Positions 8,360-11,806 of a DNA stretch of 64,000 nucleotides are shown in pieces. A program made the position numbers and the translations under genes. The stretch is from Meridianimaribacter flavus (lineage in GTDB: Bacteria > Bacteroidota > Bacteroidia > Flavobacteriales > Flavobacteriaceae), in contig NZ_SOQZ01000001.1 of NCBI RefSeq assembly GCF_004366715.1, positions 496,001-560,000 of the forward strand, written 5' to 3'. Every line of letters begins with the position of its first letter. The first letter of the stretch is position 1. A model generated the notes under the pieces. The model made no database searches, was not told the origin of the DNA, and saw only the letters and a program-made list of their open reading frames with translations.

Positions 8360-10396
8360 TTGTTGCGTTATCTCTCTCTTTTAATTTTTCTCTTTTTTAA
8401 TACCAAAGCTGTTTTTTCTCAAAACGAAAAGAGTGTTAAAGGGCTTGATAGTATCCAAAAGTTAAGAAGTTTATCTTCTGATGCTGAATTCTCATTAGAA
8501 GAACGTTTAGCTTTTGCACTTAGCGCTGTAGAATTATCTTCTAAAACTAAAATAGATTCGGTTTTAATCAACTCGAACAGGACTTTGTCGAGTGTGTATT
8601 TGAATAGAGGTGAATATGAGAAGTATAGAAAACTCAATCATAACAATTTAAAACTGGCTAAGAAAATTAATGACTCATTGGTTATTGGTATCGCTAGTCT
8701 TAACTTGGGTTGGTATCATCATTTCAATATGGTTCAAAATGATAGCGCTTACTATTATTATTCAAGAGCAGCTAAAACTTTTGACGAAATAGGAGAGTTA
8801 GATAGACAGGTTACAACATTAGTAAACTTAGCAGATATTCAAGATACTGAAAGAGATTATATTGGTGCTGAAGCTAATTCAATTAAAGCTATTAAAATTT
8901 TAGAAAGACTACCTGAAACTGAAAATTATTTAAGCACAAAATGGATACTATATAATTTATTGGGAGTAATAAATTTAAAATTAGAACTCTATAATGCTTC
9001 ATTAGAGTATCATAATATGGCTTACGATATTGGTAAGAAAATGGAGTTTGGCTTTATTGATCAAATGCTGTCATTAAATAATATGGCGTTTGTTTATAGA
9101 AAGTTAGGTAATCATGCTAAAGCGTTAGAACTCTATAATACAGTATTAGAAAATAAAGAAGTCTATAATGAAGAAGATCCTACCTTTTACCCTTTGGTTT
9201 TAGAAAACTTAGCGTTTACTAAGTATGAAGCAAAACATAGCGACATTGATAATATTGAGCAGATGCTTAAAACTGCATATAAAATTAGTGATAGTCTCGA
9301 GGATCCAATCACCAAACTAGCTGTTAGTATTGATTTGGCTAAGTTTTATTATGGACAAAAAAACAAAGATTCATCATTAGTATATGCTAAACAAGCTTAC
9401 GATATTGGTGGAGAAACAAACTCTAATCAAATATGGTTAGAATCTATGCAACTACTGTCAAAAATTAATGATGGAGAAGCAGGTAAAGCATATCTAAATC
9501 AATACATAAAGCTAAGCGATAGCTTATTGTTGAACGAGCGAAAAAACAGAAACAAATTTGCAAGAATTGAATTTGAAACAGATAAACTAGAAGAGGAAAA
9601 TAAGCGTATTTCTAGAGAGCGTTTGTGGCTTACAATACTGTCAATAGGTTTGTTATTTACTGCGCTTTTAATTTATATTATCATTACCCAAAGAGCAAGA
9701 AACAAAGAGTTAAAGTTTAAACAAGACCAGCAACAAGCCAATGAGGAAATTTACAACCTTATGTTATCGCAGCAAGATAAAGTTGATGAAGCTAGAGCTA
9801 GTGAAAAGAAACGTATTTCTGAAGAATTGCACGATGGTATTTTAGGGCGTTTGTTTGGAACAAGGTTGAGTTTAGATAGTTTAAATTTTAGTGAAGGTAA
9901 AGATGCCATTAAAAGTAGAGCAAATTATATAAGCGAACTAAAAACTATTGAAGAGGATATAAGAAAAGTATCACACGATTTAAATACCGATTTTGTTTCA
10001 GGGTCAGGGTTTATGGATATTATTTCTGAATTAATTGAGAAGCAAACCAAAGCGTATCAATTGCAATACGATTTTAAATATACTGATGATATTAATTGGG
10101 AATTCGTGCCTAATAAAACCAAAATTAACATCTATAGAATAATACAAGAAACACTTCAAAATATTTATAAACATGCCGAAGCTAATGAGGTAAAGATTAG
10201 TATTGAATTAAAAAATAACGTAATTTTATTAGCGATTATTGATGACGGAAAAGGGTTTGAAATCAATAAAAGTAAGAAAGGAATTGGTCTTAAAAATATC
10301 AATTCTAGAGTAAACGAGCTAGAAGGCTCAGTTAAGTTTTACTCAGAAATAAATAAAGGAACTTCGGTATTAATTGACATTCCTTATAAAAGTTAA
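8360..10396 (+). CDS. TPR sensor histidine kinase (HPK7-like)
   Basis: 678 residues. A signal peptide (LLRYLSLLIFLFF...VFSQ) shows that the TTG at 8360 or the next codon is the true start, since no ATG precedes it in frame. Residues 25-400 are a periplasmic array of tetratricopeptide helices, followed by a transmembrane segment (about 421-443) and a cytoplasmic coiled coil. The dimerisation/phosphoacceptor helix has His491 in KRISEELHDGILGR, typical of NarL-partner kinases. The ATPase domain shows the N box (IIQETLQNIYKHAEA) and G box (GKGFEINKSKKGIGLKNI). The response regulator gene follows after 6 nt. The signal sensed is unknown; the TPR region is likely to bind a protein or peptide. Confidence 0.93.
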   Translation: MLRYLSLLIFLFFNTKAVFSQNEKSVKGLDSIQKLRSLSSDAEFSLEERLAFALSAVELSSKTKIDSVLINSNRTLSSVYLNRGEYEKYRKLNHNNLKLAKKINDSLVIGIASLNLGWYHHFNMVQNDSAYYYYSRAAKTFDEIGELDRQVTTLVNLADIQDTERDYIGAEANSIKAIKILERLPETENYLSTKWILYNLLGVINLKLELYNASLEYHNMAYDIGKKMEFGFIDQMLSLNNMAFVYRKLGNHAKALELYNTVLENKEVYNEEDPTFYPLVLENLAFTKYEAKHSDIDNIEQMLKTAYKISDSLEDPITKLAVSIDLAKFYYGQKNKDSSLVYAKQAYDIGGETNSNQIWLESMQLLSKINDGEAGKAYLNQYIKLSDSLLLNERKNRNKFARIEFETDKLEEENKRISRERLWLTILSIGLLFTALLIYIIITQRARNKELKFKQDQQQANEEIYNLMLSQQDKVDEARASEKKRISEELHDGILGRLFGTRLSLDSLNFSEGKDAIKSRANYISELKTIEEDIRKVSHDLNTDFVSGSGFMDIISELIEKQTKAYQLQYDFKYTDDINWEFVPNKTKINIYRIIQETLQNIYKHAEANEVKISIELKNNVILLAIIDDGKGFEINKSKKGIGLKNINSRVNELEGSVKFYSEINKGTSVLIDIPYKS

Positions 10397-10402
10397 ATTA
10401 TC

Positions 10403-11071
10403 ATGCAACACATAAATATCTTAATGGTAGATGATCATCCAATAATTATTGAAGGTTATCAAAATACTTTGATGGCTACAAAAAACGATGATCAGGTACT
10501 AGTCATAGATACAGCTAATAATTGTGATACAGCTAACGAGTTACTTCAAAAAGCATCTAAAGAAAAGCCTTATGATGTCTGTTTTTTCGACATTAGTTTA
10601 CCCAGTTCTTCAGATGGTTCAATAACATCAGGAGAAGATTTAGCAAAAATTGCTCGAGACATATTACCTAATGCAAAAATTATTATTTTAACAATGTTTA
10701 ATGAGTCGTACAGGATTCATAATATTATTAAAGAGGTAAGTCCTGATGGATTTTTAATAAAAAGTGATTTAACATCAATGGAACTAGCTGAAGCATTTCA
10801 GCATATTTTATCCAACCCTCCATACTACAGTAGTACAGTAAACAACTATTTAAAGAAGTCTATTACTAGTGATATTTATATTGACGACATTAATAGAAAA
10901 ATACTTCACTTATTATCTCAAGGTATAAAAACAAGAAGTTTAAAAGAGTACATAGACTTATCAATGAGTGCTATTGAAAAACGTAAAAAGCAGATGAAAC
11001 TTTTATTTTCTGTTGAAGATGGTAAAGACGAAACATTGCTAGAAGAAGCCAGGAAAAAAGGCTTTTTGTAA
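10403..11071 (+). CDS. Response regulator with NarL/LuxR-type tail
   Basis: 222 residues. The receiver domain has the acidic pair in MVDDHP (residues 10-11 region), the phosphorylatable Asp63 in FFDISLP and the lysine in FLIKSD. The C-terminal 65 residues (INRKILHLLSQGIKTRSL...SAIEKRKKQMKLLF) match a degenerate LuxR-type DNA-binding helix-turn-helix. The linker is longer than usual. It forms an operon with the kinase at 8360. Its DNA targets may include the paired dyads at 11144-11178, which have the spacing expected for this class of regulator. Confidence 0.9.
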   Translation: MQHINILMVDDHPIIIEGYQNTLMATKNDDQVLVIDTANNCDTANELLQKASKEKPYDVCFFDISLPSSSDGSITSGEDLAKIARDILPNAKIIILTMFNESYRIHNIIKEVSPDGFLIKSDLTSMELAEAFQHILSNPPYYSSTVNNYLKKSITSDIYIDDINRKILHLLSQGIKTRSLKEYIDLSMSAIEKRKKQMKLLFSVEDGKDETLLEEARKKGFL

Positions 11072-11143
11072 ATTTCACGTTAAATCTTCATTTTTTTTTA
11101 GCTTCTCCAAGCTTATGCAACACTAGGTTATTGCTAGAAAGTA

Positions 11144-11208
11144 CGGTTTTTCCGCATCAAGTTTGCGGTTTTTCCGCACATTTAAAACCTTCTACTTATA
11201 TACATTTG
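11144..11208 (+). promoter_or_regulatory. Candidate activator sites and promoter for a small RNA
   Basis: The dyad CGGTTTTTCCG occurs twice, at 11144-11154 and 11166-11176, 22 bp apart and in direct order (both followed by CA). A -7 box TACATTTG lies at 11201-11208, so transcription should start near 11214. The dyad centres then fall near -65 and -43, the classic positions for class I/II activation by NarL/FixJ-type regulators. No good -33 element is visible, as expected for an activator-dependent promoter. Confidence 0.5.
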
Positions 11209-11212
11209 TAAT

Positions 11213-11305
11213 AGTCAACGAAATTAATTAATCCCTCTAAGTAATTTGTTGAATTAATAGCAAATAAAGAATTACCCAATAACCCACTAGGTTATTGGGT
11301 TTTTT
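11213..11305 (+). ncRNA. Putative small RNA of about 90 nt
   Basis: A promoter box ends at 11208 and a strong terminator occupies 11274-11305. Between them is an AT-rich stretch with no ATG-initiated frame. This gives a predicted transcript of about 90 nt whose 5' two thirds are unstructured. No known RNA family was recognised. Alternatively the terminator serves only the response regulator and the convergent DUF456 gene, and no RNA exists. Confidence 0.4.
11274..11305. terminator. Terminator before DUF456 gene
   Basis: Perfect 10-bp stem ACCCAATAAC / GTTATTGGGT (11274-11283 with 11291-11300) followed by T6 on the plus strand. It lies 200 bp beyond the response regulator stop and 3 bp from the end of the convergent gene. 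Confidence 0.85.
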
Positions 11306-11308
11306 CAT

Positions 11309-11806
11309 TTATACAAAACCGTCAGAATATTTTATTACTTTATAAATAAAGAATCCGGTAAAAATCATTGCTACAATAAACTTCATAAACGTTGAAGCAA
11401 GGAATCCTAAAAAAGATCCAAAAGCAGCTTTCACAGCTTTATCAAATTCACTTTTATTAATAAGCTCACCTATTAGAGCACCAAAAAACGGACCTATAAT
11501 TATTCCGAAAGGTCCTAAAAATATTAAGCCTATTATAAGGCCAATAGTTGTACCTATCATTCCTGCTTTACTGCCTCCAAAACGTTTGGTTCCCATAGCT
11601 GGAATTACATAGTCTAACAACCAAATGGCAATAGCTACAATTAATGTTATGATTAAAAATGTCCAGTTCATTGGTAGTGCATCAGTAAGATGTAAAACTA
11701 AAAGCCCAACCCAACTGGTTAATGGACCTGGTAAAACAGGTAAAAAGCTACCAAGTATTCCAAGAAGCATTAATAAGCCACTAATTATCAATAAAAATAT
11801 ATCCAT
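11309..11806 (-). CDS. DUF456 integral membrane protein
   Basis: 165 residues forming about four or five hydrophobic segments, with the glycine- and proline-rich turns of the DUF456 family (GSFLPVLPGPLTSWVGLL near the N-terminus, and GPFGIIIGPFFGALIGEL around residues 98-115). Members are predicted inner-membrane proteins of unknown function. The gene stands alone between the putative small RNA and the divergent BlaI operon. Family assignment is good; role unknown. Confidence 0.85.
   Translation of the reverse strand: MDIFLLIISGLLMLLGILGSFLPVLPGPLTSWVGLLVLHLTDALPMNWTFLIITLIVAIAIWLLDYVIPAMGTKRFGGSKAGMIGTTIGLIIGLIFLGPFGIIIGPFFGALIGELINKSEFDKAVKAAFGSFLGFLASTFMKFIVAMIFTGFFIYKVIKYSDGFV

Follow-up and report, generated by a model that had tools for sequence, protein, structure and literature searches.

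A widely conserved putative small RNA tied to a TPR kinase and NarL/FixJ-type response regulator in Flavobacteriaceae

Directly downstream of a kinase and response regulator gene pair in Meridianimaribacter flavus lies a short non-coding stretch that, judged from the comparison of genomes, turns out, for all its ordinary-looking layout, to represent a new family of small RNAs, widely conserved and linked to a single two-component system. The comparative data support the existence of the gene, its conservation, the geometry of the sites that precede it, its link to the regulator and the recurrence of second sites elsewhere. We consider it highly probable that this part of the window (the whole 64-kb stretch of DNA analysed here) encodes a conserved non-coding small RNA controlled by the adjacent regulator in the manner outlined below, with transcription, binding, activation and action in trans being inferred.

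In the mechanism that we propose, the TPR kinase would sense an unknown cue and phosphorylate the regulator, dimers of which would bind two dyads centred near -65 and -43, on the same face of the DNA with two helical turns between them. The bound regulator would then switch on the sigma-A promoter of the RNA, and may also act at single dyads located before a peptide/membrane-protein operon and several secreted-looking peptidases. The RNA, in which a 5' hairpin bearing a UCCCUC loop is followed by a UAAUAGCA linker and a terminator, would tune this programme post-transcriptionally, with the loop and linker most likely binding an mRNA or an RNA-binding protein without Hfq.

Table 1. Predicted elements of the locus, in window coordinates
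Feature	Position	Strand	Basis or remark
TPR-containing sensor histidine kinase	8360..10396	+	Pfam TPR_12, HATPase_c; weak HisKA_3
Response regulator, NarL/FixJ-type by predicted fold	10403..11071	+	Pfam Response_reg, AlphaFold, Foldseek
Distal dyad GTACGGTTTTTCCGCAT	11141..11157	+	centre ~ -65
Proximal dyad TTGCGGTTTTTCCGCAC	11163..11179	+	centre ~ -43
-7 box TACATTTG	11201..11208	+	flavobacterial TAnnTTTG
Predicted small RNA, ~92 nt	11214..11305	+	start inferred; covariance model R1
5' hairpin UCAAC...GUUGA, displays core loop	11215..11252	+	fold and conservation
Conserved core TTAATTAATCCCTC	11224..11237	+	same sense as in co-regulated peptide mRNA leader
Conserved linker TTAATAGCAAA	11254..11264	+	TAATAGC in most relatives
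Intrinsic terminator	11274..11305	+	
DUF456 gene, convergent neighbour outside RNA	11309..11806	-	Pfam DUF456 5.7e-43

The plus strand carries, in order, the TPR kinase, the regulator, the two dyads, the -7 box, the non-coding stretch of ~92 nt and the terminator (Table 1). A short coding gene was rejected, as the window RNA contains no ATG. The next gene, encoding a DUF456 protein, is convergent with the RNA and runs towards its terminator, and the RNA is therefore not a leader or attenuator of this gene. We note that similar sequence is present 3' of the RNA in several relatives, as judged by eye.

The kinase, for which the TTG start codon was taken from the list of open reading frames, matches the Pfam families TPR_12 (1.4e-15) and HATPase_c (6e-10), whereas its match to HisKA_3 (9.6e-4) remains under the Pfam cut-off. 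The best NCBIfam matches are the MctS, UhpB, LiaS and NarX kinases, all far under their cut-offs. The regulator contains a Response_reg domain (Pfam, 5.5e-10) in which D10, D11, D63 and K120 are invariant among 13 orthologues, as appropriate for a receiver domain with a phospho-acceptor Asp. The Pfam search gave no HTH match for the regulator, and no GerE. Nevertheless, the assignment of this gene to the NarL/FixJ type in the earlier note is upheld at the level of predicted fold: the AlphaFold model (pLDDT 86.9, pTM 0.66) has four C-terminal helices, compatible with a GerE-like four-helix HTH by fold only, and its whole-chain Foldseek matches are the full-length NarL/FixJ regulators ChrA, RcsB, LiaR and NarL. 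Ranking high in this comparison are RcsB structures, of which one (6zj2) is in complex with the rprA promoter. As a separate observation, TTAATTAATCCCTT is also found at G017:C1:263551 (L333), on the same strand as the regulator gene and ~2.5 kb 5' of it, possibly near the kinase start.

The two copies of CGGTTTTTCCG that had been noticed 22 bp apart are both exact, at 11144-11154 and 11166-11176, and the dyads extend further than first noted, to the 17-mers GTACGGTTTTTCCGCAT and TTGCGGTTTTTCCGCAC, members of a family with the consensus TTACGG-N5-CCGTAA. With up to one mismatch allowed, the two matches to the single 11-mer in 64 kb are unremarkable (shuffle mean 0.61, with at least two matches in 13 of 100 shuffles); the window has a single copy of the tandem arrangement CGG-N5-CCG-N11-CGG-N5-CCG, which is absent from all 200 dinucleotide shuffles. 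The -7 box beyond the dyads fits the published consensus TAnnTTTG, located at -12 to -5 of flavobacterial sigma-A promoters (PMC9723704). Together, the box and this consensus position the start at ~11213-11214, which puts the centres of the dyads near -65 and -43, in agreement with the distances initially proposed. Regulator-like sites at an activating distance from a sigma-A promoter thus appear to be in place as far as the DNA letters alone can tell. Binding of the regulator to the dyads, for which there are no direct data, is an inference that rests on adjacency, co-occurrence and fold; transcription, activation rather than repression, and a regulator-dependent level of the transcript likewise remain inferences.

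The promoter geometry was followed in 68 of the 69 genomes identified with the covariance model described below. The proximal 17-mer has at least 8 of 12 matches to TTACGG-N5-CCGTAA in 60/68 genomes, and a second site exactly 22 bp upstream has at least 7 of 12 matches in 57/68, such that the distal dyad is weak or lost in 11. At this offset the mean match is 8.4, compared with 2.9 at other offsets, and it ranks top of the tested offsets in 55/68 genomes. The dyads are thus kept in relatives, as the earlier note had required, and at a fixed geometry. A TAnnTTT(G/A) box is present in 65/68 genomes and begins at -11 to -13 in 58 of these. When thresholds of 8/12 (proximal) and 7/12 (distal) are applied to 93 loci of regulator orthologues, both dyads exceed them in 85. 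A regulator of only 28% identity (L028, in G003) is also followed by dyad-like sequences, ACGGTTTTTTCGT and GCGGTGGTTTTCCG, a TATATTTG box and a terminator; these elements lie ~80-260 nt past the regulator stop with no obvious gene between, and perhaps mark an analogous RNA.

In a set of 60 genomes, M. flavus included, full-length regulator orthologues with at least 66% identity are found in 13, and the RNA lies downstream in all 13 cases; a fourteenth orthologue (G015), with 70% identity over part of the protein, runs into the contig edge. A scan of named genomes, including Mangrovimonas, Gelidibacter, Psychroserpens, Winogradskyella and others, contributed a further 80 loci, the best-scoring 80 of 395 relatives, and the RNA is again present in 80/80. 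It is therefore found at all 93 regulator-orthologue loci read (13 and the best 80 of 395 relatives, with at least four genomes counted twice), a count obtained with a looser pattern, since the strict pattern skipped 21 of the 80 loci.

A covariance model of the hairpin and linker (R1), applied with stricter Infernal filters to 249 genomes of the family, detects the RNA as a single copy in each of 69 genomes, which represent 64 of 235 genera. Because 68 of the 69 matches are located directly past a regulator orthologue (91-298 nt, median 154) and on the same strand, the RNA is tied to the regulator, as the suggestion of a small RNA beside the regulator gene had implied. The exception (G238, E 0.0065) falls inside a long open frame and looks like a chance match. 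Relatives of the regulator with at least 63% identity are present in 74/249 genomes, of which 68 carry the RNA; five of the remaining six have a diverged version in place and one meets a contig end. Of the more distant regulators with 48-60% identity, 17 in number, 14 loci were read: six have RNA-like sequence and eight have none. By eye, neither RNA nor dyads were seen at 13 loci of paralogues with 32-47% identity (L015-L027). Control of the RNA by the regulator is well supported by comparison, with transcription and binding inferred. In a literature search restricted to titles and abstract openings, with most subscription papers outside it, no description of such a pair or of the RNA was found.

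The predicted RNA folds better than its shuffles (z -4.95, terminator included) and meets the description of a conserved non-coding RNA with an intrinsic terminator. The recurring parts are a 5' stem (UCAACA/UGUUGA), a core extending to AUCCCUC within the apical loop, the UAAUAGCA linker and the terminator, with the loop and linker being the most conserved parts outside the stem. The RNA sequence varies among loci (CCCTT, CCTTT, TCAGC), and the diverged RNAs of L163 and L165 have no CCC loop. RNAs of class A, from Mangrovimonas, Winogradskyella and relatives and including that of the window, have variable terminators, and class B comprises 37 of 79 sequences. As class B was chosen by the string TGAGAGA, this string is invariant by choice, whereas changes in the stem are unaffected. 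In class B, the terminator loop AGGUGAGAGAC is shared by 19 of 25 distinct terminators, and six of the nine terminator pairs have double-sided changes, with all cells pairing. The whole structure has 35 double-change cells, compared with 8.4 +/- 2.6 in shuffles. The 5' stem is 97-98% paired but has no double-sided change in either alignment, and is therefore conserved without being proven by covariation. Thus, the covariance check suggested at the outset is satisfied by the compensatory changes of the class B terminator and not by the 5' stem. No Rfam family reaches the gathering threshold on either strand of 11060-11350, and membership of a known Rfam family was rejected on this basis. GGA is absent from the window RNA, and in class B a single GGAGG is located in the terminator loop. 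We also note by eye that the AGGUGAGAGAC loop of class B RNAs (e.g. L141:1460-1554) is part-complementary to the 5' loop CCCUCA, so that a loop-loop contact is possible.

Sites resembling the dyads are also present elsewhere in the genomes. In the M. flavus genome, the pattern ACGG-N5-CCGYA gives 10 counts at 8 places and its reverse gives 3; the flanks that were read contain no further tandem dyad. In 16 RNA-positive genomes, the stricter TWACGG-N5-CCGYAR reaches 81 counts at 54 places, perfect palindromes scoring twice, and its reverse 54 counts, such that most single dyad matches in a given genome could be chance. The scattering of dyads at random, raised earlier as grounds for refutation, is therefore only partly dispelled: single dyads are modestly above the reversed control, whereas the recurring ones precede a small set of genes. 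Of the 54 places, 10 are RNA promoters, 26 were examined (mostly those with A/T-rich centres) and 18 were left out, a selective choice that provides no enrichment value. Enrichment of k-mers upstream of genes was also left unused, because a large number of genes escaped the gene caller and the loci are not independent of one another.

Five of the 26 examined places precede a gene for a ~48-aa peptide that overlaps a membrane-protein gene, and seven precede genes with Pfam peptidase matches above cut-off (three M12B, and one each of M14, M43, S8 and M57). One further dyad lies near an Rce1-like membrane protease. The neighbours of the others include lipoproteins, an elongation-factor-type GTPase and a protein whose tail is a type IX sorting signal, and some have no obvious neighbour. 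These selectively examined sites suggest a regulon for proteolysis or peptide use. The M12B (reprolysin-like) metallopeptidase is found behind a dyad in the M. flavus genome (G000:C1:254209, L276) and at L304 and L311. An oligopeptide-type ABC-transporter ATPase is the divergent neighbour at L304 and L311, beside M12B, and at L307, beside another gene. The lipoprotein-like proteins behind the dyads of L310 and L316 have no Pfam match and look related by eye, sharing '...Y.SYTF.I.R'.

The site that recurs before the peptide operon accompanies the RNA, being present in 18/18 RNA-positive genomes and in 0/12 RNA-negative genomes (16 were searched, of which 12 have the membrane-protein gene). It lies 203-276 nt upstream of the membrane-protein match and has 9-12 of 12 matches in RNA-positive genomes, compared with 7-8 of 12 in RNA-negative genomes, which retain a similar-sized short frame before the gene, without the dyad. 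In mononucleotide shuffles, p is at most 0.01 in 16 of the 18 genomes, and 0.065 and 0.075 in the other two. The RNA-negative genomes are more distant, however, and phylogeny therefore confounds the co-occurrence of dyad and RNA. In M. flavus, the operon dyad is at G000:C2 178758 and the membrane frame at L275:1162-1710. The ~48-aa peptide has a hydrophobic N-terminus (MKTKKYVLAxAIFGGMLF...) and overlaps a 183-aa membrane-type protein without a Pfam match. In several operon promoters (e.g. L275, L274, L340), the dyad is separated from the -7 box by TTTAACA-like repeats, to which a further factor perhaps binds.

How the RNA might act in trans can only be inferred. Hfq (PF17209) was found in none of 28 genomes, the control search being positive in 5 of 14 known genomes, and any action of the RNA must therefore take another route. 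Pairing of the UCCCUC loop and/or the UAAUAGCA linker with target mRNAs near their start codons could well be correct, although we would not quite expect it: the layout is that usual for small RNAs, with a conserved loop and linker and a terminator at the end, but the anti-seed sites upstream of ATG codons are in slight excess only (148, compared with 110 in the control, over 15 genomes), and antisense action through GAGGGAUU near start codons was rejected on this account. GAGGGATTA occurs 11 times in the M. flavus genome against 7 for the control, one of the 11 being the other strand of the RNA gene itself. Pairing of the UAAUAGCA linker with the peptide mRNA, to which an 8-nt match in the same genome had pointed, was rejected, as it shows no cognate advantage across 18 genomes (-6.9 kcal/mol for cognate and -7.1 kcal/mol for non-cognate pairs), and feedback on the kinase leader was discarded, as no conserved anti-core site was seen by eye in 80 kinase leaders. 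Instead of pairing, the core AAUUAAUUAAUCCCUY might mimic the co-regulated peptide mRNA leader, titrating a leader-binding factor, a possibility that we regard as rather unlikely. Over 16 genomes, TTAATTAATCCCTY has 19 matches and the reversed sequence one; 12 of the 19 are the RNA, two are peptide leaders and five are elsewhere (of which at least two immediately precede other open reading frames), the last group arguing against a decoy. Of 67 related core matches in 740 kb, 65 correspond to the RNA and two do not, compared with five matches for the reversed control, and a leader of the form ATTAA..TCCCT..ATG is present in 14/18 RNA-positive genomes, the other four having variants, and in 0/12 RNA-negative genomes. 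The rarity of the core, together with its same-sense recurrence in the peptide mRNA leader, favours a decoy without showing it, as does the failure to find Hfq in the 28 genomes. CsrB/RsmZ RNAs titrate CsrA/RsmA under GacA, and CsrB-type RNAs carry many copies of their element, whereas the RNA described here has a single, hairpin-held copy, and some diverged RNAs (L163, L165) are without its CCC loop. The more far-reaching proposal, that in Hfq-less genomes the RNA is a same-sense leader mimic (UUAAUUAAUCCCUY) acting as a decoy for an unknown leader-binding factor, such that a single regulator would govern a programme of peptides and secreted proteases at the transcriptional as well as the translational level across tens of flavobacterial genera, seems to us unlikely. 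Shorter motifs were set aside: TTAATCCCT as a general leader motif has 88 matches and 47 reversed in five genomes, the longer core being nearly specific, and TAATAGCAA, with 115 matches in the M. flavus genome compared with 61 in the control, is too common for use.

The conserved function could also reside in the double site itself, the short transcript being a by-product that does no more than insulate the convergent DUF456 gene. The terminator does part two convergent units, but conservation of the transcribed core and linker across ~64 genera, together with the compensatory changes that keep the class B terminator paired, makes this very improbable. We further consider it improbable that the dyads are bound by a regulator other than the adjacent one. 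The absence of binding data, the missing Pfam HTH match of the adjacent regulator and the modest genome-wide excess of single dyads over control leave room for such a regulator, whereas RNA and dyads accompany the orthologue and are unseen beside the 32-47% paralogues, and the adjacent regulator itself has a NarL/FixJ-like fold. Under the preferred reading, a small RNA controlled by the adjacent regulator, Flavobacteriaceae would have a small RNA of broad conservation for which a controller can be named, a binding site defined and a short candidate regulon listed. Its fixed geometry and single copy make regulator-RNA-protease control testable in Winogradskyella, Gelidibacter, Psychroserpens and Mangrovimonas.

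Comparison with known RNAs reveals both likenesses and differences. Rfam BTnc005 and the trpB motif give sub-threshold cmscan matches over 11204-11311 (E 9e-4 and 0.037), but with 24.5 bits against a gathering threshold of 174.8 and 28.4 against 59, the RNA is not a member of either. The Flavobacterium psychrophilum small RNA Rfp18 is described as needed for correct metalloprotease expression and is said to pair via its third stem-loop (PMC9723704). A link to proteases is shared, in that the dyads described here also precede peptidase genes, whereas our RNA has two hairpins; identity with Rfp18 is not excluded.

The RcsB-RprA system of Escherichia and Salmonella similarly has a NarL/FixJ-type regulator that acts on a small-RNA promoter. 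RprA is Hfq-dependent, and rprA is not known to follow the regulator gene. In contrast to the RcsB-RprA system, TPRs are present in the kinase described here, none of 28 genomes yielded Hfq, such that an Hfq-dependent trans-acting small RNA is not indicated, and Rfam gives no threshold match. In the GacS/GacA-RsmY/RsmZ and BarA/UvrY-CsrB/C systems, a NarL/FixJ regulator controls small RNAs, with secreted proteases downstream. The hallmark of CsrB/RsmZ-type RNAs, many GGA motifs in stem-loops, is not met by the window RNA, which lacks repeated GGA stem-loops, has UCCCUC instead and occurs as one copy per genome. The GacA/UvrY systems and the one described here nevertheless have in common two-component control of the NarL/FixJ type and a link to proteases, and the core of the RNA resembles a co-regulated leader.
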